This document shows, in pieces, positions 29,311 through 47,900 of a DNA stretch of 64,000 nt. The notes below the pieces were generated by a model. That model made no database searches. It saw only the letters and a program-made list of their open reading frames with translations, and was not told the origin of the DNA. A program made the position numbers and the translations under genes. Where the stretch lies: assembly GCA_014925825.1 (NCBI GenBank), contig JACGCK010000007.1:682001-746000 (forward strand), given 5' to 3'. Source of the stretch: Pholiota molesta. Its lineage: Eukaryota; Basidiomycota; Agaricomycetes; Agaricales; Strophariaceae. The first letter of the stretch is position 1; every line of letters begins with the position of its first letter.

Positions 29311-30495
29311 GACCCAGCGCGAGGATTGGTTGGAAGTCGGAGACACAAATATGCCTATGCCATGCCGATTTTATGATTTAACTTTTATGCTGAAATATAC
29401 ATCCTATGTTCGCATTACTCGAGACATCGTACTAACAAAGGTAAGATACTTGCCTGATCGGAGGTTGGACATCGTCTCGAATATCATCATCGCTTCCATG
29501 GAGTCTACTACGGAGACTACATTGTGGCGACTATTCGAAGTCACAAGTCAACAAGTAATTAATGATCGGTTACCTCGGCTTTTTCTCGGTGAGAAAACTC
29601 ATGCGTCTCGAGATGAAATAAGCCGCACGGACAGTACTCTCTTTGCCCCAAACCAAACGTGGGTGATACACCCACACAGCTCACCTCGCGTCGAATATTA
29701 TTAATTAATACTATCTATGTATCACGTGGCTGATGCTATATTGATAGCAAGTTATTTTTAGCGCTCAACAGGCGCTCTGGCTGGTTTGATACGTATCGCA
29801 AACAGCGCAGTTGGGGGCGGCGTATTCAAGCGTAGGCAATAGCCAAAAGAAAGGTGCTGAACTTCCTAAAGCGCTCACGGAGGGTCACACGCCGGATAAT
29901 TCTACGAATGGTTGGCGCTAAACAGATAGGAACAAGTCGGAACGCGTCCACTTCTGTGCAACGTTTTTCTCATGATGGATGGTTTTCAAGTGGATTAAAC
30001 GTAAGAGAGTGCATCGTGGTTAGGCCAGACGGTAGCATTGAACATATACATGTGCTAAAAGTAGAGGTAAGTGACATCACTATAGCCAAACTGTAGTCCG
30101 AAAGATCAAGGTTAAAGTTAGTCCTGGAAGAAAACGTGGTTAGGGCATGGCTTTTGCTGGCTTCCGGTCACCTCGCCAATGGCACACCTCTTTAATCGCT
30201 TAATCCTCTTTGTACTAAGTCTCCCTACCAACCGCTACACAAAGGAACGGAGCTACATTTGTAGACTAAAGTCTCCACGATAAGACCGGAAATTCTTGTC
30301 GTATCAAGCGCCCAAGTGGTATTTCCTTGGTATTTCCTTGATGGGGAAAGGGATTCATGTCGTCATAATTATTCCACCTCACGGTAGACGCACCATTTGA
30401 CCATCGATTATACCCATACCACTGTGTTATAAGGACAAAATCCAGGGTCAGTCGTCAATCTCCTCGTCTCGTTTACCATCACTGTCGCGCTACAA
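29311..30495. other. 5' flank of duplication unit 1
   Basis: No gene is supported; an 80-codon frame at 29854-30096 has no motif. From about 29.6 kb onward the sequence is recognisably related to 35.3-36.3 kb, for example around 29640 versus 35430, 29760 versus 35650, and 30120-30250 versus 35970-36110. It is the upstream part of a segmental duplication. Confidence 0.6.
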
Positions 30496-33400
30496 ATGGG
30501 TCTTTTAAATCTCCAATTGGTTCCTACATATGTCGGAGGGTGATAACAGTTTACTCATCTACCTCCGAAAACTGTTCTGATAATTGAATCACTAGGATAG
30601 TCAAACGTGTCAGCTTGAAGTAGGCAAATCCTCCAGACGAGCACTGCCTCCCGAACTGATGACGTGCGATGTAGGATAATAGGCTTGACATCATATGGCA
30701 ATCCGCTCGGCGGGGCAGACGCCAAATCACTGCCTTCTGAGTACGTCTGCCTACTCCGGACCGTGAATCAATAGATTGTAGGCGCTTACTATAATTTTAG
30801 AACGCCGCAGGCGTCGGCATCATCGTCTGTGGAATTCAATTCAAAAGACACAAAAACAGTAACTTCAAGGTAGAGAAAGCATGCGTTCCTTAAAAAGGAA
30901 TGACTAGCTTATATTGTTACCTTCGCGTTATTTAAAAGCTCTCAACTCGTCGGGCTTGACGACAAGACAATCTCGGTCCATAATTCAGAAGCATCCCAAG
31001 AAACGTACGTCTAGCATTCTCTCATTTGAGACAATTCACATTGAGCTCATTGATCTTTTGTCCGCTTGATGAAGTGATTCCGAGGGGTCTCTCGAAGGGT
31101 CAACATTAGCATCGGTATCAGAGAATTTCCACTCAGATAAAACAAAAGACACGACGGTAGAAATGTCAATGTAAGCCATGTCGTATTTTCAGAAAAATTA
31201 CATGAACTGACTTGACGACACTTATGCTCCATTACTATAGCTCTCAAATCGTCGTCAGTGAAGGCGAATACGGGACGAACCAGATGGAACCGCCAAAATT
31301 CAAGTATGTACATAGAATTTGCTAAAATTTAGAAATCCATGCCTTATCATCGTTATCTATCTATCATAGTTCCCGGCTTTTTGCGCTAATAATAGGAATC
31401 AACAAATACAACTCACGCACTACTTCAAATTCCCGTGGCCAGAAAACATACTCTCCAGAAATCGAACTGCCATCATTTACCAATCTCCGTGGCGCTGTAG
31501 CAGATGCAGAGAATTTCTACAAATACCTTACATCCGATCTCGACGTTCCCAGCGACCGAATAAACCTGCTTTGTGACGAGCAAGCCACCCGCGCTGAAAT
31601 CATCAAAGCTTTCCAAGATCTAGGCGAAAGGCAGGACATTCGCAAGGGAGACTCGATCGTCATCTTTTATGCTGGACATGGTGCGCAAGCACTTCCACCT
31701 CAACGATTATCGGCCACGCCGGGGTGTCCAAAGTATGTTGAGCTTCTAGTCCCACACGACTACGGCAAAGATCCCAAAAATTATCAGTCGAAGGGTATCC
31801 CGGACTACACACTGGCGGCGCTTTTGAACGGGATTGCCGAGAAAAAAGGAGATAACATTGTGAGTGTTGTTTCTGGCCCTAACGATTGTGCCCTCATAAC
31901 TTGAACTTCGGATTTTCAGACTGTCATCTTCGACAGCTGCCACTCAGCGTCGGCTCTGCGGGGTCCTGTTTCTAAACCTGTTTCGGACGATGAGAATTCT
32001 CAGCCTATCGCGCGAACTGGGCCAGAGTTGAACTATCGCATACCTGATGACCTAGACGTCGACATCTGGGGAGGAAAGAGGGCGTTGTCCGTCCTTCCCC
32101 GATTACGCCACGTGGGGTCTGCATCTTATGTGTTTTTCTCAGCTTGTTCATCGTCTGAGTTGGCGAAGGAGGACAACGGCCGAGGTTACTTCACGTCGGC
32201 TCTTTTGAAGCTTCTGAAAGAAGTAGGTTCTCGCACCCTTCCATGTTCTCAAATAATAACTCGCATAGGAAGAATCCACGAGTATGTATTTTTTCTTTTT
32301 AATGTTTATATCATTAAATGCTAACGAGATCACTTCAGCCAAATCCTCAATGCGAAGGACTGCACACAACTCGATCTATTTTTCATGGTTTCTTGCCGTC
32401 ATACAGGAACGATTTACAACGTCAGCGTTCGCCATCAAAAACACTGACAATGCCGGACGCTCGATGACCTCGCATACATTGTCGGGACGCTCGATGGACT
32501 TTCGCAAGGCGACGAGTTGACCGTTTATAAAACTCGATCAGAGGATGACTGAAGAAGCCTGTCGCCGTTTTTGTTGTCGACAAGGTTCCAATCGGATCTC
32601 ACTTCTCAGATTTCGCGACCAGCCTCCCTTGGTTGACATTAAGACATCTTGTCACCCTGCTCCTGCGCTACTCACCAATCTGCACAGTCTCATCTACGAC
32701 TCTACATCAGCGCTGGGTCCAATCATGTCGAACACCTTGTTTCCCTTGTCAATCGATTACAGACTCTGGCACTATAACCATCATTACTTCGGAAGCTGAT
32801 CGCCCAACGACCCACATTTCCTTTCCACAGACGACGGCATTGATCTTCTTTTGACGTTGTGTATGGAGCTTACAAAGACCACTGCCATCGCTTCAAATAC
32901 GAAGGTGACAGTGCAGACGAAGCTTGACTAGAATCTTTAGAGGGCTTTCTGACTACTACTGGCATCTGAACGCACCCATCCTATTCGATCCTCTTCCATA
33001 CCACCGATACAGATATCTCCATTTCGTTCTGTAATTGCGTCAAGATAACAAAATCTCCAATCCGTATTCGTTTCGATAGGGGAAGCGACCGAACTCTTGT
33101 ACGCGATGGGGCGTTGTAGACTTGGACGTCGACTCTGCGCCGGGTGACATTCTCACGAGTGGATGAATTCGCGACGCTCGGTTGATCCAGAGTCTATGGC
33201 GTGAAGGTACTAACAACAGCCAAGGGACCTTTATCCGGCGCTGTTCTATTTTGACAACGAGACTTTACTATCGTAAGTCCCACTGCTAGTGCTTGACATT
33301 TAGTTGATGCTGATATTCTATTATTCAGCCCTATCTATCAACCTCCTTGGGGAACCAGAAAGCCGAATCTCCTCTGAAAAAAAGAATCTATTACGATAGG

Positions 33401-33667
33401 TTACGGAGCAGTGGGTGCAGGGCAACGGTGGCACCTTTATACTTTTCTCTACCCAAGGGCCGGACGATGGACATCGGGTTTCTGAAGCTCATTCTTTCCA
33501 CCGAACACATCGATCTACAAGACATGGTACAAGAAAGTCGTCTCTTTGGGGACTCTACACGCGCTCTGGGCAAGCCACTCTCCGCGATTCGGAAAACACA
33601 ACCGTTGAACTGGTCCTCCTCATTCACTATCAAGGTGATTCAGAGACTACGGCAAGACCAACAATAG
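30496..33667 (+). pseudogene. caspase-like (C14) protease, duplicate copy 1, C-terminal half broken
   Basis: The protease core is intact: RLFALIIGINKY (about 31375), LPSFTNLRGAVADAENFYKY, the catalytic-His segment DSIVIFYAGHGA (about 31650), a short intron (31861-31919), then the catalytic-Cys segment TVIFDSCHSAS. The C-terminal extension (32.34-33.67 kb) has many indels relative to the copy at 42.4-44.7 kb, for example near 32342, 32405-32415, 32430-32490, 32545 and 32860-33000, so it cannot be read in one frame. Its last exon (LILSTEHIDLQDMV) is still recognisable. Upstream, ATGGGTCTTTT at 30496 is shared with copy 2 and may be the start of a small first exon. Given the deletion errors seen elsewhere some breaks may be artefacts, but their density here is much higher than in ordinary genes, so real decay is likely. 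Confidence 0.75.
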
Positions 33668-33914
33668 TTGAAGTTGAGGCCTGAGGCCTGAAGTTTGACC
33701 ATCGTTGTACATATTTTTCTACTTTCTTTCTTCTCAAATTTGTATTTTTGGTTTATGTAAACTTCCGCCCGTCTCATTTTCTTGTAGTTATCGAAGATAC
33801 TGTGGAGTTGTACTTGTATCGTCTATACATGCTTTGATAGTTAAGTACTTAGTGAGTATTGGTAGTGATAATTTTGTATATTATAAATCATTCCAATGAG
33901 CAAGGTACCGCAAT

Positions 33915-34575
33915 CTAAACCGGCACCTACGTTGACAACTGTGCGTTTTCAGTAGTCTCTCCCGATTGCAATCCCTGTTGGGTTTTATTGTTCGATTCGT
34001 GGTTCTGCGTCACCAGGTCGCTGGGAAGGAGAGCCACTCGATCGACCGCGACAGGCAAGCCTCTATGTCTACCTCGCACCCTAAATCCCATTATGAGCAG
34101 GTGCATGGTCGGGACGATAGGAGTGCACTCACATGGTAATCATGACTATAATTTTGGATAAGGGGTGCAGTGCGCCAGAGAATGCGAAATTATCCTATGA
34201 ACAATAGGAGATGAGCGAGAGAATATGAATGTAACATGTATCTTCTTACGTATGGGACCCCAAGCTCAATCCGATACCTCCAAACGCCGAAACCAACTCG
34301 AACAGAACGCGGAATAGCTCAAAACATTTCTTCGAATCGTCGAGAAGGCTTCCTCTTTCGATGATGGCGATGAAGAATACTTCCCATATTACATAGCCAC
34401 CAAATGTCTGTTATTCAAAAACCGGTGAGTATTTAGATATATTTCAGCCAGATTGGTCATTTCACACCTATTGACAGCTGACGGCGCAGGTGCCATCCGA
34501 GATATCTTCCGATAGGCTCCCTCCTAGATTTTATCTTGTCGAGGCCTTCTGGTTCTTCATCATCTTCATCTGGTG
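33915..34575 (-). pseudogene. 3' fragment of a TRK potassium transporter (duplicate)
   Basis: Nearly the same as 44.93-45.59 kb, the 3' end of the intact TRK gene. The last-exon segment RGRHRGLPVAVDRA is present on the minus strand near 34040-34075, the membrane exon near 34240-34400 is present with changes, and the similarity stops abruptly at about 34575. No upstream TRK exons exist here, so it cannot encode a transporter. Confidence 0.85.
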
Positions 34576-36366: not shown

Positions 36367-39175
36367 ATGGGTCTTTTCGCACTGTTTGGACAATGGTAAG
36401 CAAGACAAGGCTGTAAATGTGTACTGACCTTTCATAAATACCTCGGGTTAGGATGATAGGGTTGACACTGTGTAGAAATCAGGTCAGAGAGGAAGAGACT
36501 GACAAATCACTTCAATCTGGGTACGTTCTCCTCCCATTCTATTAGAAACTATGACTAATAAAATCTGGGCGCCTGTTGTGAATATAGAGCCCCGCAGGGA
36601 TCGGCTTCAATGTAACGACATCGTTCAGTTTTCACAAACGACAAACAGCTAATATATTGTCCTTTGCATCATATCTATAAAGCCCACGATCTGCCAATTT
36701 AGAAGATGAGATAGTCCCAGTCCACAAAACAATAGCACTCAAAGATATGTATGTGACATATGTCTCTCTTCTGCGAAATAGTGACGGCATCAATTATCTC
36801 AAATCCCTCTCTTCCTCGCAGGCCATCCACCGCAACAGTGAATTCCGATCATGATACTGGCACGAATCGAACGAAGGAGGGAAAGTTAAAGTGAGTCCCA
36901 CGTAAATGCTACAGCTGGTTTACATTGACATCTAATCCATATCGCTATCAATACTATAGCCCCCGTCTGTTCGCACTGATAATAGGGATCAATACCTATA
37001 GTCCGAGCTCGAAAGCTGTTTCGATTGATCGCGGGTCTCAAGTGTTGACCGCGAACTCTCTGAACCCTGCCCTCCCATCATTCACCAATCTTCGTGGCGC
37101 AGTCGCGGACGCAGAGCATTTTCACACGTATCTTACTTCCAAACTTGGAGTCCCTGAAAAGCAAATAACGCTTCTTCGCGAAAAAGACGCCACGCGTGAG
37201 GAGATTATCGCCGCTTTCCAAAGTTCAGTGAAAAAGGGAACGGAATCAACAAAGGAGATTCCATCGTCATTTTTTATGCCGGACATGGTGCGCAAGCGCG
37301 CCCTCCCAGACGACTGCTGGGGACCGACGGGTGCCCAGAGTATGTCGAACTCCTAGTCCCCTACGATTACAACAGAATCCCTGGGAATCAAGAAAATATG
37401 GGCATCCCTGATTATACACTAGCTGCGTTAATCAACGCAATCGCTCGCAGCAAGGGGGATAATATTGTAGGTCTAATTTTACAACTCCTGCTCGAGTGCG
37501 TTCGAGCTGATTATTTTACTTCTCAGACTGTTATATTCGACTGCTGTCATTCTGCATCGGCTCTAAGAGGGCCCACTTTGAACCACGGGGATTCACAAAC
37601 CATTACGCGGGCTGGTCCAGAACTAAACTACCACATACCAGATGAACTTGACGAAAAAATATGGGGCGCAACGAGTGGGACAGCTATGGGCCCACGGTTG
37701 CGTTATTTTGGTGGTGCTGCATCTTATGTGTTTTTCTCGGCCTGTGCTTCGTTTGAACTGGCGAAGGAAAAAGACGGCCGCGGCTGCTTTACATCAGCCC
37801 TGTTAACGCTTCTTCAAGAAACAGCCGGCTCTCACACGCTTTCATGTTCTCAAATATTATCGCGTCTTCAAAAAATTGACGGGTAAGCCACATTTGTGAA
37901 AAGCTCCTGAGTTCATTCGCGCTAACCATCCTTCAGTCAAAGTCCCCACTGCGAAGGGCTACATACAAGTCGGCCCATATTTCATGCATTCTCTTCGTCG
38001 CGAAAGAAGCAATTCTTCGACGTTCGTCCTTATAAACCTAAGCGACCGACGGGGTCGTCGCCCAAATTCACTTTGGATGCTGGAAGCATCAATGGGTTCT
38101 CGGAAGGGGACGAGTTCGCTGTCTTTGAGACTCGATCCGATGACGACCATAATAAACCCAAAGGACACCTCATTATCGAGAAAATTTCTGTTCGCACATC
38201 CCTGCTCAGACTCTGCGATGCGGATTCGTCATTTGAACTTCCGTGTAATCCCGCTCCTGCTTCGCTTACCACGCCGGCAGAACATCACCTTCAGCTTTAT
38301 GTCGTAGGGCCCGAAAATGAGCTGCGTACTAAGCTCATTTCTCGCATCAATCGCTTGAATTTACATGGCACTGTCCGCATCACTCTTGATCTTCGGGAGG
38401 CCCACATTTCGCTTTCGACAGACAAGGATGGCACCAAAATTCGCTTCCAGGTGGTGGATATAGACTTGGTCAGCAAAAATCTTGCCTGCAGTCAGTATGA
38501 TGTCGACACAGAAACAGACGACGCGAAACTCGCCCAATATTCAAGGATCTCGCACATTACTATTGGCACCTGAAACGCAACTCCCGACTCTTCCAATCTC
38601 TCAGTCGATATTTCCATCTATAAACTAAAGCAATATGATACACCCCCAAATTTTCGCCCAGACCCTGAATCGGATAACCTGTACGATAAGACAGCCCAAG
38701 TCCTAGACTTGAATGTCGATGTTCAATCTGACGATCGCGATTATGAAAACGAATTTGAAGACGACGAATTCGACGATGGATCTGACCAGTATGGCCTGAA
38801 GGTGACCAACAACACACAATGGGACCTTTTCCCAACTCTATTTTATCTTGATAATACCAAATTTACAGTCGGTGTGTGTCGTTCTTCTTAGCTAGTGATA
38901 ACAGACTTACTTCATGGTTTATCTATCACGCAGAGTCCGTTTATCAACACCCATAGCGAAGCAGAAAGCCGAACCCCCTTAAAAGCGAAGGAGTCCTTGA
39001 CAATAGGCTACGGTGTTGGGCAGGGGGAACGATCCCACCCTTCGCTTTTCACGTATCCGAGGGTCGGAATATGGAGATTGGGTTTTTCAAGCTTATCCTT
39101 TCGACGCACTCCGTCGATCTCCAAATATGGTGCAGGACGTTCCTGTCTTTGATAGTACCCGAGGTATGAAACAAT
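36367..39175 (+). CDS. caspase-like (C14) protease, duplicate copy 2, frameshifted
   Basis: More diverged from the other two copies. Possible first exon at 36367 (MGLFALFGQ), then further small exons. The core has RLFALIIGINTYSP (about 36960), FTNLRGAVADAEHFHTYL, the His segment DSIVIFYAGHGAQ (about 37257, reached only after a one-base shift at an A-run near 37228), an intron (37469-37527), and the Cys segment TVIFDCCHSASAL. The C-terminal extension reads well from about 37938 (CEGLHTSRPIFHAF) through NNTQWDLFPTLFYLDN near 38815 and LTIGYGVG near 39000, but needs further one-base corrections near 38540, 38605 and 39040. Both catalytic residues are present. With so few, single-base breaks this copy may be functional in reality. 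The end coordinate is approximate. Confidence 0.7.
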
Positions 39176-39504
39176 GAAGAAGGAATCAGTCGCTCCATCG
39201 CCTCCCAATACATGGCTCTCCATCAATATCTTGGTGATTCAGCGATGTCCTCACGGAAGTTTGACTTATCCGAGTCCAGTCCATGATGGGTGGTTTCTCT
39301 ACTTTCCCATTTTCATCTCTTCCGATTCTCATACATGATTTATCATGCTGTTTGCTGGTTTAGTCCCATTGTACTCGACCAGATTGTAGAAATATTGAAA
39401 GTGTACTTGTATTCTTCTAGTGTCTATGTAAATGCTGAATGATTAGTAACGTTTGCAGCGATAGTTTAACAAATTAAATATCTCTCAGGAGAGCAAAGTA
39501 TCAG

Positions 39505-39712
39505 ACCACGATCTAAACCGGCACTTGTGATGACGGGTGTCGGCCCTCAGTTGGTTCTCCCCAAGTTCTCCCAATTGTAATCCCTCTTGTGGCTTATTAT
39601 CCGATTCACGATTTGCAGTCACCAGGTCACTGGGCAGGAAAACTGCTCGGTCGACCGCGACAGGCAAACCTCTATGTCTACCTCGCACCCTAAATTCCAA
39701 CTAAATTCCATT
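39505..39712 (-). pseudogene. short 3' fragment of a TRK potassium transporter (duplicate)
   Basis: Contains only the last-exon segment (FRVRGRHRGLPVAVDRAVF) and its C-terminal tail on the minus strand, matching 44.94-45.10 kb and 33.92-34.09 kb. It follows caspase copy 2 at the same relative position as in the other units. Too short to be a gene. Confidence 0.85.
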
Positions 39713-40298: not shown

Positions 40299-43200
40299 AT
40301 GGGCGCCGCAAATTCCAGATTACTCGGGTTTCCGGGCTCCCAATTTTCCATCTACGGTGGGCATTTTGTGTGGGCGAACACGTTTAATATGATTCAGACC
40401 ACGGATAGAAGTACGTTTGGTGAATCTTCGAAACACCCAAATCCTTCGCGCTCACAGTGACCTGCATCTTACAGAGGGATTCAAGCACCTGCAACGATGG
40501 GTTGCCACATCCGCCTTGCACGACTCTTTTCAACATGCTGAACCGCCAAGATGCCACCCAAAAACTCGGGAGGCAATTTTGCAGCAGATATTCGACTGGA
40601 TGGCATCTTCGGAGGAACGCAAGGAATGGCTCATGTGGCTGAATGGGGCCGCAGGCGCAGGCAAATCAGCGATCGCGCGGTCAACGATGGAGCGATGCGT
40701 GACGACACATCGCGCTGCCATCAGCTTTTTCTTTTGCGAGAGGGACTTAACGCGAAATACTTTGGATGCCTTCGTTGCGACATTAGCCTATCAACTCCTT
40801 CAAGTGATCCCAGATACTTCAAAAGACATCATCCAAGTCATTGAGCGGAATCCCCTTATCTTCCAACAATCATTTGAATCTCAAATCAAGGAGCTCTTCA
40901 TTGATCCTCTCGTTCGCGTGTGGCCCCTTTTCCCCGAACTTCTGCTCCTCATCGTGCTGGATGGCCTCGACGAATGCAAGAATAAAGGTCTTCAATGCGA
41001 GCTTATTCAGGTACTCGGAAATCTCATGAGTACTAGAAAAGTCCCCGCCATATTTCTCATTGCCAGCCGTCGAGAGGCTCACATTGAAGCCACTTTCAAG
41101 CAACAGGAGGTCGCCAACATTCTGCTGACGCTCCCACTTGATGATGTCGCAAAAGTATCAGATGACATTCGTCGTTTTCTCGAAAGCAAATTTGCTGCGC
41201 TCAGAGAAACCCATAAAGTCGGTCCAGACCTTCCAGACGATTGGCCCGCGCCTCGCAGCATTGACGACATCATTAAAAAATCTTCGCGCCAATTCCTCTA
41301 CGCCTCACTTGTCATGAACTATATAGGATCTCCCTATCACCATCCTGTGCTGCAACTTCAGATTATCGAAGGGCTCCGCTTACAACATTCTTCTTCAGAG
41401 CATCCGCTTGCTCATCTTGATATCCTCTACCACCATATCTTCTCTAAGGTTAAAGCCCTTTATTATGAGAACATATTCAATATTCTAGCATACATTCTCC
41501 TCACTGGCGAAAATAGGATTTCCGTCATCAACCAGGTATTCCAATTCGAACTTGGCGAGCTAGAAATGACGTTGTCGGATCTAGCTGCAGTCATAGCATG
41601 CGATCGCCAAGAGAATTCGATACAACTCCTACACTTGTCACTCTCCGATTTTCTTTTAGACGAAAACCGATCTGTGAACTACCACATCCGCTCCGACGAA
41701 CACAGCGCCAAGCTGGCATGTCTGATCCTTGCACGGCCGTCCAAGCATTATTTTGGGGATTCCAATATACTGAAATCACTTGTCCAATTGCTTCGAAAGG
41801 CAACATCCACGGCACAGCTATGGCACTTGTTACTTCAATTTACACCGGCTGTCGAACTCATGCATCTGGCATTCGGGTCCTCTCTTTTACCCATGCTTGA
41901 CCTTTTAGAGGCTACGAGAAAGCTGGTAAGGCATTACTATTTCTCACATTGCATCTTACTACTAAACGGGATTATTCATTATCCTCTACATCAACTTGCA
42001 GTCAACGCAGGAACGCAACGAAGTGTATCATCACTTTTTAGCTTTGTTCAATCATTATCTTGCATACCGAGCGCACATAGATAGCGACGAACAGTCTGAT
42101 GCTCAACGTATATGCGTGGACTCCAACGAAGAAATCGATCGGATGCATTCCTCGGAATTGTATATGACTAACAGGCATATTCAGTTTACTCTTGCGCGAC
42201 AAAAGGGTCTTGTTCAAGCCGCAGTGAATCATGCTGGACGGTGACAATACTTTACTCGCCTGTTTCCAATATTTATTCTGACGATTGAATTACCAGGCTG
42301 GCCCATAAAATAATAGGCTATGATAAGTACGTCTTCCCGCCGTGTTCTATTCTAAACGACATCATCATTATCTATCCGCAGGTCAACTTCCAAGCTTTTT
42401 GGACTCATAATAGGAATAAATAAATACAAACCCCATGCCTACCGGCGTAGCCATCAACAACACTCTTTCGAACCCGAACCACCGTCGTTTCCCAATCTTC
42501 GTGGCGCCGTAGCGGACGCAGAGAATTTCTACAAATATCTTACATCCGACCTTGGGGTTCCCAGCGGACAAATAAACCTGCTTTGCGACGAGCAAGCCAC
42601 CCGCGCCGAAATCATCAAAGCTTTCCAGGATCTAGGCGAAAGGCAGGACATTCGCAAGGGAGACTCGATCGTCATCTTTTACGCTGGACATGGTGCGCAA
42701 GCACTTCCACCTCAACGATTATCGGCCACGCCGGGCTGTCCAAAGTATGTTGAGCTTCTGGTCCCACACGACTACGGCAAAGATCCCAAAAATTATCAGT
42801 CGAAGGGTATCCCGGACTACACACTGGCTACGCTTTTGAACGGGATCGCTGAGAAAAAAGGAGACAAAATTGTGAGTGTTGTTTCTGGCCCTGACGATTG
42901 TGCCCTCATAACTTCGGAATTTCAGACTGTCATCTTCGACAGCTGCCACTCAGCGTCGGCTCAGCGGGGTCCTGTTTCTAAGCCTGTTTCGGACGATAAG
43001 AATTCTCAGCCTATCGCGCGAACTGGGCCAGCGTTGAACTATCGCATTCCTGATGACCTAGATGTCGACATCTGGGGAGGGAAGAGGGCATTGTCCGTCC
43101 TTCCCCGATTACGCCACGTGGGGTCTGCATCTTATGTGTTTTTCTCAGCTTGTTCATCGTCTGAGTTGGCGAAGGAGGACAACGGCCGAGGTTACTTTAC

Positions 43201-44681
43201 GTCGGCCCTTCTGAAACTTCTGAAAGAAGTAGGCTCTCGGACCCTTCCATGTTCCCAAATAATAACTCGCATAGGAAAAATCCCGGAGTATGTTTTTTTC
43301 AAATGTTTATATCATTAAATGCTAACGAGATCGCTTCAGCCAAAGTCCTCAATGCGAAGGACTCCACACAACTCGATCCATTTTTCATGATTTCTCGCCG
43401 TCATACAGGAAACGATTCTACAACGTCAGCATTCGCCATTTAAGGTACACTGTCGATGCTGGGATGCTCGATGGACTTTCACAAGGCGATGAGTTGACCA
43501 TTTATAAAACTCAATCCGAGGATGCCCTGCAGAAGCCTGTCGCCGTTTTTGTTGTCGACAAGGTCTCCAATAGGAACTCGCTTCTCAGAGTTCGCGACCA
43601 GCCTCCCTTGCCTGACCTTGAGTCATACTTGGTCGACCCTGCTCCTGCGCTACTCACAAAAACTGCGCAGCCTCATCTACGACTCTATATCAGCGCTGGG
43701 CGACCCAACCATGTCGAACGCCTTGTTTCCCTTGTCAATCGATCGCAGACGGCTGGCACTATAGCCATCCTTACCTCTGAAGCTGATCGCCCAAAGGCCC
43801 ACATCTGCCTTTCCACAAACGATGGCGTTGATCTTCTTTTTGACGTTGTGGATGGAGACCTGACCAAAGACCATTGTCATCGCTTCAAATACAAAGGTGA
43901 CAATGGAGCCGAAGGCTTGACTGAAATCCTAAGAAGGCTTTCTGACTACTACTGGCATCTGACACGCACCCTTCAATCCTCTTCCCTCGATATAGATATC
44001 TCCATTTCGTTCTGTGAATTGCGTCAAGATAACAAAAACTCTGCGCTATTCGTTTCGAACGGGCAAGCGACCGAGCTCCTTGTGCGCGATGGCGACGTTA
44101 TGGAATTGGACGTCGACTCTGCATCGGATGCCAATTCTCAGGAGATGGATATATTCGACGACGATCCGGTTGACTCAAAGTTGTATGGCGTGAAGATAGC
44201 TAACAATAGCCAATGGGACCTTTATCCGGCGCTGTTCTATTTTGACAACAGAGACTTTACTATCAGTAAGTTGCCACTTCCAGCGCCTAATGTTGAAGCC
44301 TGAAGGGTCATTGACATATTCTATTATTCAGCACCTATCTATCAACCCCCCTTGGGGAGCTTAGGGAACCGGAACGCCGAATCTCCTCTAAAAAAACGGG
44401 AATCCATAACAATAGGTTACGGAGCGGCGGGGGCTGGTGCTGCGGTGCCACCCTTATACTTCTCTGTACCCAAGGGTCGAAAGATGGACACCGGGTTTCT
44501 GAAGCTCATTCTTTCCACCGAACACATCGATCTCGACGATATGGTGCAACCAAGTCCTCTCTTTGGGGGCCGTACCGGCCGCACCGTGCCGTCGTTAGTA
44601 CCGAGAAAAAGACAATTACCATTAGTGAATTTGTCTTCATTCACCATCAAGGTGATTAAGAGACTGCGGAAAGATAGTTGA
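40299..44681 (+). CDS. NACHT ATPase fused to caspase-like (C14) protease
   Basis: Predicted fusion of about 1,325 residues. Exon 1 (40299-40410) gives an N-terminal FPGSQFSIYGGHF segment. Exon 2 (40458-41925) carries the NACHT domain: ATSALHDS and PPRCHPKTREAIL, Walker A GAAGAGKSAI, Walker B LLLLIVLDGLDEC, and IFLIASRREAHI. Then come exons 42002-42240, 42297-42326 (30 nt), 42382-42871, 42926-43287, 43340-44265 and 44332-44681. The caspase part holds KLFGLIIGINKY, the His segment DSIVIFYAGHGA and the Cys segment TVIFDSCHSASA. It ends in the extension with NNSQWDLYPALFYFDN, ITIGYG and FLKLILSTEHIDL. Every junction from exon 2 to the stop is in phase without any frameshift. Only exon 1 is one base out. 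The two introns joining NACHT to caspase (42241-42296 and 42327-42381) are 56 and 55 nt, each with a branch-like CTGAC or CTAAAC. If unspliced, the NACHT part would stop at 42242. NACHT proteins are STAND switches; here the output would be proteolysis. No C-terminal WD40 or ankyrin sensor is present. Confidence 0.72.
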
Positions 44682-44938: not shown

Positions 44939-47900
44939 CTAAACCGGCGCTGGCGCCGACAACTGCGCATTTTCAACACTGTCTCCCGATTTTTCTTGCG
45001 GCTTGCTGTCCGATTCGTGATTCTGCGTCACTAAGTCGCTGGGAAGGAGAACCGCTCGATCGACCGCGACAGGCAACCCTCTATGTCTACCTCGCACCCT
45101 AAATTTTATCGTGAGCGGGTACATGCATATGATTGAGACCATATGAGTGCACTTACATGATGATAATAACTATAATTTTGGATAAAGGGTGCAATGCGCC
45201 AGAGAATGCGAAATTATCCTATGAAGAATAGGAGATGAGCGAGAGGCGATGAATTGAACATGTTTCTTCTTACATATGGCAGCCCCAGGCTCAATCCGAT
45301 ACCTCCAAACGCCGAAACCAGCTCGAACAGAACACGGAATAGATCAAACCATTTCTTCGAATCGTCGAGAAGGTTTCCTCTTTCGATGATGGCGATGAAG
45401 AATACTGCCCACACTAGCCACCAAATATCTAATGTTCAAACACCGGTGAGCAACTCAATATATCTCAGCCTCGGTCATTTCACACCTATTGACAGCTGAC
45501 GGCGCAGGTGCCATCCGAGATATCGCCCGACACGCTCCCTCCTCGATTTTATCTTGTCGAGGCCTTCTGGTTCTTCATCCTCGTCATCTGGAGGAGCCGC
45601 GAAAACGCCCAAAGAACGCTCTTCATAGCTGAAAAAGCGATCAGGGACAATCTATCGAGTACTCAACATGTGCGGACTTACACGTTCGTAGATCGAATAC
45701 TGATGGCGATCTAAGGATGCAAACAGGTTGGGTGATGGTCATTTTCTGTTTAGAGTAGAACTTACAGGATAGACCTATGAGGAAAGGCATCAGCCAAGGA
45801 TTGTAGGGGTTGTATATAACATGGAGGGACATACTGCAATATACATCATAACCACGTAGAGAAATCTGCCAAGCAAGGTTCAGATCAAGTACATCATCCA
45901 TGTGCGCAACGGCAACTCACTGAAGCGCAGGCGCCAGATTAGCAACAGGAACGATGGCAAAACCAGATGCTCTCGCTGCTAATCCCTGGAAAAGACCAGA
46001 GAGGACTCGAGGTCCGACCGGTATTGAATCGTAAGCCGGAAGCCCGATGTCTATAGAAACGGAAGTGGTGAGTATGTTGCGGTGAGCAAGATAAGTATGG
46101 GATGATGCCGTACTAAGAACGAGAAAAGCAACCCATTCGATGATGCTGAATAGAGCCAAACAGACGACAAGGAACCATGTTTGGTGGCTTGGGAAGCTTA
46201 GGCGGAGGTTCGGTGAGTGGTCATCGATCGTAGGGCACGGTATAGAGATGAACATACAGGTATAGGAAACATCTACATTGTGCATTAGTTGACTGAACGC
46301 CCATTTGGAGGAAAAGGGAGTCGTACCTCCGTGGGTGATCGAGAAGAAAAGATAAGGCCTCTTGCGATTCAGAATGTTCGGGAAGCACTCTGGATGCTAT
46401 CCAGCTGTCGCATTCACTCAGTGGTGGCTCCAGCGCCTTGAAAAGGACGAGACGTACATGACAAGGCGCAAGCTTCGTCATAGCGTCACGTCAGTAAATG
46501 CTGGAATCGGTCGTAGCGAGCAACGCACAAGATAGGCTGAATGTAACGGTTTCTTAGAAAGAGGATGTCATTGGCATAAATATATAAACTCACCAGAGCA
46601 TGGTTTCCCGCCAATATGACGAAGATTAATGCCGCTTAAATATAATCAGACCATCAATCCAACTACATAAAACCAACCAATCAAGTGACATACCAATCAT
46701 AAGGTATGCATTTTGGAAGGGCACCATGCCTCTAACGAACGCGCAAGAAAGCGAGTAAGCCACACGTACAAAAGAAATCGGGTGGAAAATCACCTACAGA
46801 TCCACCAGCGATAGGCCACCACCTGTATAAGCCCCCATGGCTTGGAAGAAGGCAAACCTGATTCAACCGCATTAGCATTAGTTCTCATGAATCGAAAGCG
46901 AGAAATCACCAAGGTTTCGATACCAGTCGGAATGGGCCGCAAACACTCCATCATACGTATGGATGACGGATAGCCAAGGCAGGAACAGCAATACGGTGAA
47001 CAATTGACACAGAACGAAGTACTTCAATCCTCGATAAGTGACATCGCCAACAATCCAAATGTGGGTAGGCTCACGCAGGAACGAGATAGCTCAACAGCCT
47101 CAGCGCACGATACTCCGCACCCCCGATATCCTCCAGCTGCTCGTCCGTCAACGACTCCGTGTGGAAGTCCGAATTGCGCCCCACGACCAGGCCGCTGAAG
47201 TTCAGCCACCGCACGTTGGTGGAGTGCAAGGTCGTGTAGGTGCTCATGGTCATGGTGCGTTCCATTTTTCGATGCATGCTTGGTGCGGCTTCTTGAAGAG
47301 TTGTTGATGAGCTCGGTGGGCCAGGAAGCCGTCGAAGTTCCGGTACCTTGCATCTTTGGATTCTAGAGGTGAATTGGAAGGTACGACCATTGTTGACCTC
47401 GTATAGGAACAGCACGGCCATCTAGACGAGTAGTAAATGTCAGGTCTTTAGCGATAATATCTTTGAGGGAACTGACCTTGCATCTGGAGCATCGGATGAT
47501 AGTAAGCCACTCTCGGCGAAATCGTAGTGGATAAAGCAAATCCAATTTGAGTAGATCGGGCTGTTCGGTTCGACAGAGGTGAGCGAAACGAGGGCTCGAC
47601 ATCAGGTGAGAGTATGGCCTCGTTCGCAGACTTCGGCGACGATGAAAAGAGTTGGCTGTCAGGAAGAATACGGTTGCGCTCTTCATTCGACTGCAATTCA
47701 GAATCTTTGGGAGGTTCTGTGTTCGTTGGATGCATGAGGGTAGTTCCAGGCGTCGGGCCAACAAACTGAATCTGAGGATTGGATAGGGTATTCGCCAGGT
47801 TGCCTTGACGTGGTGTTGGTTCTCGTTGCTTGAACGCTGCAATTGGCGCTGAGATTGTCTCCATGAAAGAAGCTTTAGATCGAAGCGACCTTGGTTTTTT

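Follow-up and report, generated by a model that had tools for sequence, protein, structure and literature searches.

The window analysed here is the whole 64,000-nt stretch of Pholiota molesta DNA (G000:C593:682001-746000), which comes from an assembly of 65.6 Mb in 625 contigs. Gene C, on the + strand between 40299 and 44681, can be read as 8 exons that we checked base by base and found to be open and in phase throughout, giving a predicted product of 1319 amino acids and a stop codon. All 7 introns are bounded by GT..AG, range from 52 to 76 nt, and agree in phase. The product carries a NACHT/NPHP3_N module, then a Peptidase_C14 domain, and then a C-terminal region without Pfam assignment. 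The coordinates of these features, and of 2 related caspase copies in the window, are collected in Table 1.

Table 1. Features of gene C and of caspase copies A and B (window coordinates)
Feature	Position	Strand	Basis
Caspase copy A, a standalone gene, with exon 1 at 30496-30539, a micro-exon at 30596-30619 and the core starting near 31374	30496..33669	+	comparison
Caspase copy B, with its ATG at 36367, the core starting near 36960 and the core frame broken near 37230	36367..39180	+	comparison
Exon 1 (aa 1-37, MGAANS..., GG-motif segment)	40299..40410	+	similar segments in L049 and C43
Exon 2 (NACHT/NPHP3_N STAND ATPase)	40475..41925	+	Pfam PF24883, PF05729
Exon 3, whole	42002..42240	+	GT..AG model, in phase
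Exon 3 start, last part recognisable in a NACHT paralog (NEVYHHFLALFNHYLAY)	42002..42070	+	match to L049
Junction stretch inside exon 3, 117 nt, holding in-frame ATGs 42143 and 42164	42071..42187	+	open, codon-biased
Exon 3 3' end, the former caspase 5'UTR end and exon 1	42188..42240	+	alignment with copy A 30481-30539
Intron 3, homologous to caspase intron 1, carrying an in-frame TGA	42241..42296	+	alignment with copy A
Exon 4, 30 nt, at the site of the possible 24-nt micro-exon of copy A	42297..42326	+	comparison with copy A
Intron 4; long high-identity copy A match begins inside, at 42361	42327..42381	+	blastn
Exon 5, p20 portion of the caspase, including YAGHG, the catalytic His motif (aa 711-715)	42382..42871	+	PF00656; alignment with yeast Mca1 (4f6o)
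Exon 6, remainder of the C14 domain, including DSCHS, the catalytic Cys motif (aa 779-783)	42926..43287	+	Pfam; Mca1 alignment
Exon 7, C-terminal region, no Pfam match, common to copies A and B	43340..44265	+	Pfam scan, copy comparison
Exon 8 and stop codon	44332..44681	+	gene model

The original prediction, made from the letters of the window, had the NACHT frame continuing past the apparent stop at 42242 into the protease and on to 44681, by way of 2 short introns and a 30-nt exon. Our model agrees in each of these respects: the introns are 56 nt (intron 3) and 55 nt (intron 4), the 30-nt exon is bounded by GT..AG and in phase, and all junctions carry the frame. A 10-nt exon from an acceptor at 42316 was set aside, as it runs immediately into a stop codon (judged by eye). 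It had also been claimed that the caspase has no usable start of its own. The ATG at 42320, the sole one from the stop to the acceptor, is indeed out of phase, but the claim as a whole was too strong, since 2 in-frame ATGs (Table 1) sit just upstream, within exon 3. It should be noted that gene C is represented by one assembly copy; no further copy, whether of the locus or of a flanking stretch, was found in the assembly.

The NACHT module was identified by 2 Pfam families, both above their cut-offs: NPHP3_N (PF24883) at aa 73-236 (93.7 bits, E 1.9e-26) and NACHT (PF05729) at aa 91-248 (37.1 bits, E 3.7e-09). Exon 2 encodes GAAGAGKS at aa 95 and VLDGLDEC at aa 198, which we take to be the Walker A motif and the Walker B region, respectively, and which mark the module as a NACHT-type P-loop NTPase. 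No N-terminal effector domain was found by Pfam: the first match, at aa 73, is the NTPase itself, with about 70 residues preceding it. Among the 6 Pfam hits obtained up to E 1 over the 1319 residues, none belongs to the WD, ANK, TPR or LRR repeat families, a result that would accommodate divergent repeats. By its predicted domain content, then, the gene C product is a NACHT-caspase fusion and not a canonical tripartite NLR.

The genome holds at least 88 NACHT matches and at least 150 NPHP3_N matches. We placed the gene C module in a tree of 26 rows, made up of 24 paralogs (L049 to L072), the window NACHT (L048) and, for a NACHT gene on contig C43, its open C-terminal half; the window NACHT, L049 and the C43 gene form a clade of 3 with support of 100/100. 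The closest paralog is L049, on contig C29, at 60% identity. Exon 1 also resembles both relatives (55% over 20 aa for L049, 48% over 27 aa for C43), and at the start of exon 3 a run of 17 residues is 59% identical to L049 (E 0.008-0.011). L049 extends beyond this point into a further tail, a 276-codon stop-to-stop frame, of which gene C matches just those 17 residues. As a separate observation, possible starts in the 3 clade members read MGAANS (window 40299-40316), MGTSIS (L049 1284-1301) and MGASIS (L074), presumably fitting the N-myristoylation pattern MGxxxS; by eye, the MGTSIS frame of L049 meets a stop soon afterwards. Caspase copies A and B begin MGLL and MGLF.

Peptidase_C14 (PF00656) was matched at aa 619-890 with 61.7 bits, relative to a cut-off of 21.4 (E 1.1e-16). 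In an alignment with yeast metacaspase-1 (4f6o), the YAGHG and DSCHS motifs fall on their counterparts, which points to a His-Cys dyad of the C14 type. A Pro/Gln-rich prodomain of the type-I metacaspase kind was not found: in gene C the core is preceded by NACHT, and copy A, which stands alone, starts MGLLNLQ. The Pfam scan gave no match in aa 895-1319, a region that could be a sensor, and no hit above cut-off in the L049 tail, in 2 L073 pieces from the C43 gene, in exon 7 of gene C and copy B, or in exon 3. A structure prediction for exon 7, made from a two-row alignment, had a mean pLDDT of 33.3 and was discarded.

Gene C has 3 caspase sisters: copies A and B, and copy D (L031), a truncated fourth caspase some 15 kb ahead of the window. 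The start of copy A, at 30496, is ATGGGTCTT; as a predicted model, this copy can be read as a 44-nt exon 1, an intron, a 24-nt micro-exon, a second intron and a 66-nt exon, all open; copy B, which keeps the start ATGGGTCTTTT at 36367, can be read as open exons of 29 nt and 69 nt. A gene for a TrkH-type cation transporter at window 44942-46396 on the - strand (PF02386; 2 of 3 pieces above cut-off) converges on gene C, and DNA from the 3' end of the TrkH gene is present after copies A and B as well (fragments 33958-34090 and 39567-39699), so that the duplicated unit seems, from the arrangement of these fragments, to be a caspase with a TrkH tail. Another caspase-like array, of about 7 places, was seen at G000:C279:104491-128200, on a contig for which no NACHT match is listed.

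Comparison with copy A gave the clearest view of the end of exon 3. The segment 42188-42297 of gene C aligned with copy A 30481-30596 at a local score of 38, relative to a maximum of 34 in 1000 dinucleotide shuffles and to 26 for the runner-up among the non-self tiles of the window. The alignment starts 15 nt to the 5' side of the copy A ATG, and at the position of that ATG gene C has AAG, at 42203 (aa 589), in frame with NACHT. The codon at 42242 that seems to end NACHT is a stop in frame just inside intron 3, and copy A has a stop in the same place (MGLLNLQLVPTYVGG then stop in copy A, KGLVQAAVNHAGR then stop in gene C). We therefore rejected a NACHT gene with a stop of its own at 42242, as that stop sits in the homologue of caspase intron 1. 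Since the donor at 42241 is, by the sister comparison, inherited from the caspase gene, the fusion is firmer than the original prediction could know. The same comparison of gene C with copy D gave a weak score of 27, matched by 23 of 1000 shuffles, and with the region upstream of copy B a score of 23, at chance level (310 of 1000 shuffles); the exon 1 homology is thus carried mainly by copy A. Copies A and D themselves align strongly (score 122, at most 35 in 200 shuffles).

Each side of the junction appears to have lost its facing end. Copies A and B have a common upstream region (A 29893-30409, 68% identity), which is likely to be the caspase promoter. Plain blastn had overlooked the exon 1 homology, and we did not accept it as sole proof that this region is lost from gene C; the loss was therefore retested by shuffled local alignment, with the A-B pair as control. 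The region was not detected in the gene C junction or upstream of NACHT (scores of 15-20, matched by 92 to 456 of 500 shuffles), whereas the control scored 248 vs at most 29 in shuffles. Gene C is also without at least one exon, that found between start and core in copy A (66 nt) and copy B (69 nt). Since the L049 tail is reduced to 17 matching residues and the caspase homology begins at 42188, the junction lies between 42071 and 42187. This 117-nt stretch is open, with an in-frame codon score of 0.19 bit/codon, relative to -0.63 and -0.70 in the other forward frames and 0.08 in the best reverse-strand frame; in a benchmark of 2000 intergenic segments the 95th percentile was -0.01 bit/codon, and 18.9% were open. 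The 53-nt ex-caspase piece of exon 3 scored 0.06 in frame vs 0.44 on the reverse strand, and for this piece the codon score is uninformative. Further downstream, the start of the long copy A match at 42361 may mark a recombination or conversion breakpoint.

Constraint on the protease was estimated from gene C and copy A. The dN/dS values were 0.195 for exon 5 (155 codons), 0.139 for exon 6 (120 codons), 0.69 for exon 7 (272 gap-free codons) and 0.27 for exon 8 (96 codons), and where low they partly reflect the copy A branch. As the long A-C match begins within intron 4, the low core values may span the time during which the core has stood behind the present exon 4. Exon 7 of copy A (window 32339-33272) differs from that of gene C by 30 deletions, 27 of them of one base, and 6 insertions; exon 6 has none. 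These indels may be uncorrected assembly error or recent decay, either of which may have raised the exon 7 value. Because of the first possibility, we did not take copy A to be a certain pseudogene and did not use its state as proof of constraint on gene C.

A second junction of this kind was found on C43 (L073/L074, G000:C43:66900-72000), where a NACHT gene runs in frame into an exon of a type-I metacaspase, the join being placed to within about 40 bp. NACHT homology to L049 reaches L073:1301 (86.6%, final piece 80.6%), metacaspase homology begins at L073:1340-1342 (71.8% to L078, 73.3% to L079, both ordinary metacaspases in appearance, by eye), and the frame runs through the join (...ILELHARYPYRKKKALFV). 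Leaving aside its self-match and an identical stretch on C339, the exon past the join has 7 genomic matches at 48-62% identity (the best 3 at 56-62%); the solved-structure sequences listed for it were metacaspases in 9 of 9 cases, each match being weak (E 0.099-1.4). The gene is damaged, with a NACHT frameshift near C43:68340 and, by eye, a disturbed catalytic Cys site. Among 31 caspase-like matches listed by place, which include those of the window and omit weaker or neighbouring pieces, 2 (window and C43) have a NACHT match no more than 500 bp away and 23 are on contigs without one, the NACHT lists being lower bounds. One of the 23, on C339, looks like a duplicate of the C43 locus truncated by the start of its contig, with its NACHT end seen. 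Since 2 of the 3 clade members carry such a junction, with 2 protease subfamilies and one of the genes damaged, we put forward tentatively, as somewhat less than an even chance, that this NACHT lineage has repeatedly acquired C14 proteases to serve as C-terminal effectors, through loss of its own tail next to a caspase or metacaspase gene; the products would be one-piece, inducible-proximity caspases with the domain order reversed. A scan of a bacterial and archaeal collection gave 81 stretches that fit a search pattern, of which 0 were confirmed.

In the aggregate, and at the level of sequence comparison, these observations establish the anatomy of gene C and its origin by rearrangement, and we infer that it gives one transcript and one protein. 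A NACHT gene would have come to sit directly upstream of one member of the local caspase array, in a rearrangement that deleted the NACHT 3' end together with the upstream region, most of the 5'UTR, the start codon and at least one 5' exon of the caspase. The first splice donor of the caspase and its phase would have been retained, so that splicing is predicted to carry the NACHT frame into the protease. By analogy with other NACHT/STAND proteins, the module would act as a nucleotide-dependent switch that oligomerises on a trigger, possibly sensed by the NACHT C-terminal half or by aa 895-1319. Clustering would then bring the C-terminal caspase domains together and, as expected from caspase biology, activate them by proximity to cut substrates, and the hyphal cell would probably be killed or restricted. 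Gene C may be viewed, as was originally suggested, as a candidate for a new defence or cell-death system.

The main rival to a fusion is a pair of overlapping genes, with a NACHT-only protein of about 600 aa ending at 42242 and a caspase that starts from the internal ATG at 42143 or 42164 and uses the same short introns. The 2 ATGs are in frame, the unspliced NACHT frame does stop at TGA 42242, and sisters A and B start at their own ATG; we nevertheless regard this arrangement as unlikely, for the A/B upstream region was not found near gene C, the ancestral ATG is lost, no 3' end proper to the NACHT gene is visible, and the stop at 42242 belongs to the caspase intron. Very unlikely, in our estimate, is a young read-through or decaying chimera, that is, an accidental frame from a recent rearrangement that yields no working fusion protein. 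All 8 exons are open over 1319 codons, core dN/dS relative to copy A is 0.14-0.20, the catalytic motifs are kept and the junction is codon-biased, and these points must be set against the plain local duplication and rearrangement, the broken appearance of copies B and D and of copy A in exon 7, the damage to the second NACHT::metacaspase case, and the ease with which an in-frame join arises (about 1 chance in 3 by arithmetic, with the intergenic open rate given above).

A third alternative accepts the anatomy of the fusion and differs in function alone: the protease would not be a death effector, and its ordinary physiological role would be to process a substrate or else the NACHT protein itself. 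Metacaspases also have non-death roles, and a death or defence role is something that we infer here; the expansion of NACHT and NPHP3_N matches in this genome would, on the other hand, fit a repertoire for non-self recognition, and we consider the third alternative less likely than not. The fusion is supported by the open, in-phase frame taken together with the homology of the exon 3 end and intron 3 to copy A, the change of ATG to AAG and the intron-borne stop; by the missing L049 tail and caspase upstream region; and by the kept catalytic motifs, the low dN/dS of exons 5 and 6, the junction codon bias and the second junction within the clade. It is weakened by the ATGs that permit a separate caspase start, by the weak C-D and chance-level C-B alignments, by the higher dN/dS of exons 7 and 8, by the better reverse-strand score of the 53-nt piece, by the damage to the sole other junction found, and by the single assembly copy. 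Weighing these, we give a probability of roughly 2 in 3 to a chimeric gene in which the NACHT frame is spliced into a caspase of the local array, with a NACHT-triggered protease as its likely working.

NACHT proteins, C14 proteases and couplings of STAND ATPases to proteases are all known kinds. Fungal NLR-like STAND proteins have an N-terminal effector, a NACHT or NB-ARC domain and C-terminal repeats; gene C is like them in its NACHT/NPHP3_N matches and its Walker A and B motifs, and unlike them in having its enzymatic domain at the C-terminus, no Pfam repeat family, and a stretch of about 70 aa ahead of its earliest Pfam match. Yeast Metacaspase-1, the nearest solved structure by sequence, has a similar p20-type core with the GHG and DSCHS motifs aligned. 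In gene C, however, the protease stands behind NACHT, the acidic EEDGMDDV of Mca1 is unmatched in the alignment, and there is a long extra C-terminal region that includes exon 7. In the animal apoptosome and in bacterial STAND-caspase proteins a STAND ATPase controls a C14 protease, as we propose for gene C; the apoptosome consists of 2 proteins joined by CARD domains, unlike the one-piece gene C, and the bacterial one-piece proteins usually have the protease at the opposite end. The C43 junction is of the same clade, with a C-terminal protease and an in-frame join; it differs in using another C14 subfamily, in having its join, placed to within about 40 bp, inside a metacaspase exon, and in being damaged. 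Set against these known kinds, what may be new is a C-terminal protease acquired by fusion in a fungal NACHT protein, together with a second case in the same clade.

Fungi have many NLR-like proteins, with a known mode of killing for few of their effectors. A natural one-piece NACHT-caspase, if true, would put a fungal STAND switch in direct connection with a caspase-like protease, in a form testable in one protein. The locus would also be a readable case of the merging of a receptor with a protease, in which the frame is preserved by an inherited splice donor once both genes have lost their facing ends.
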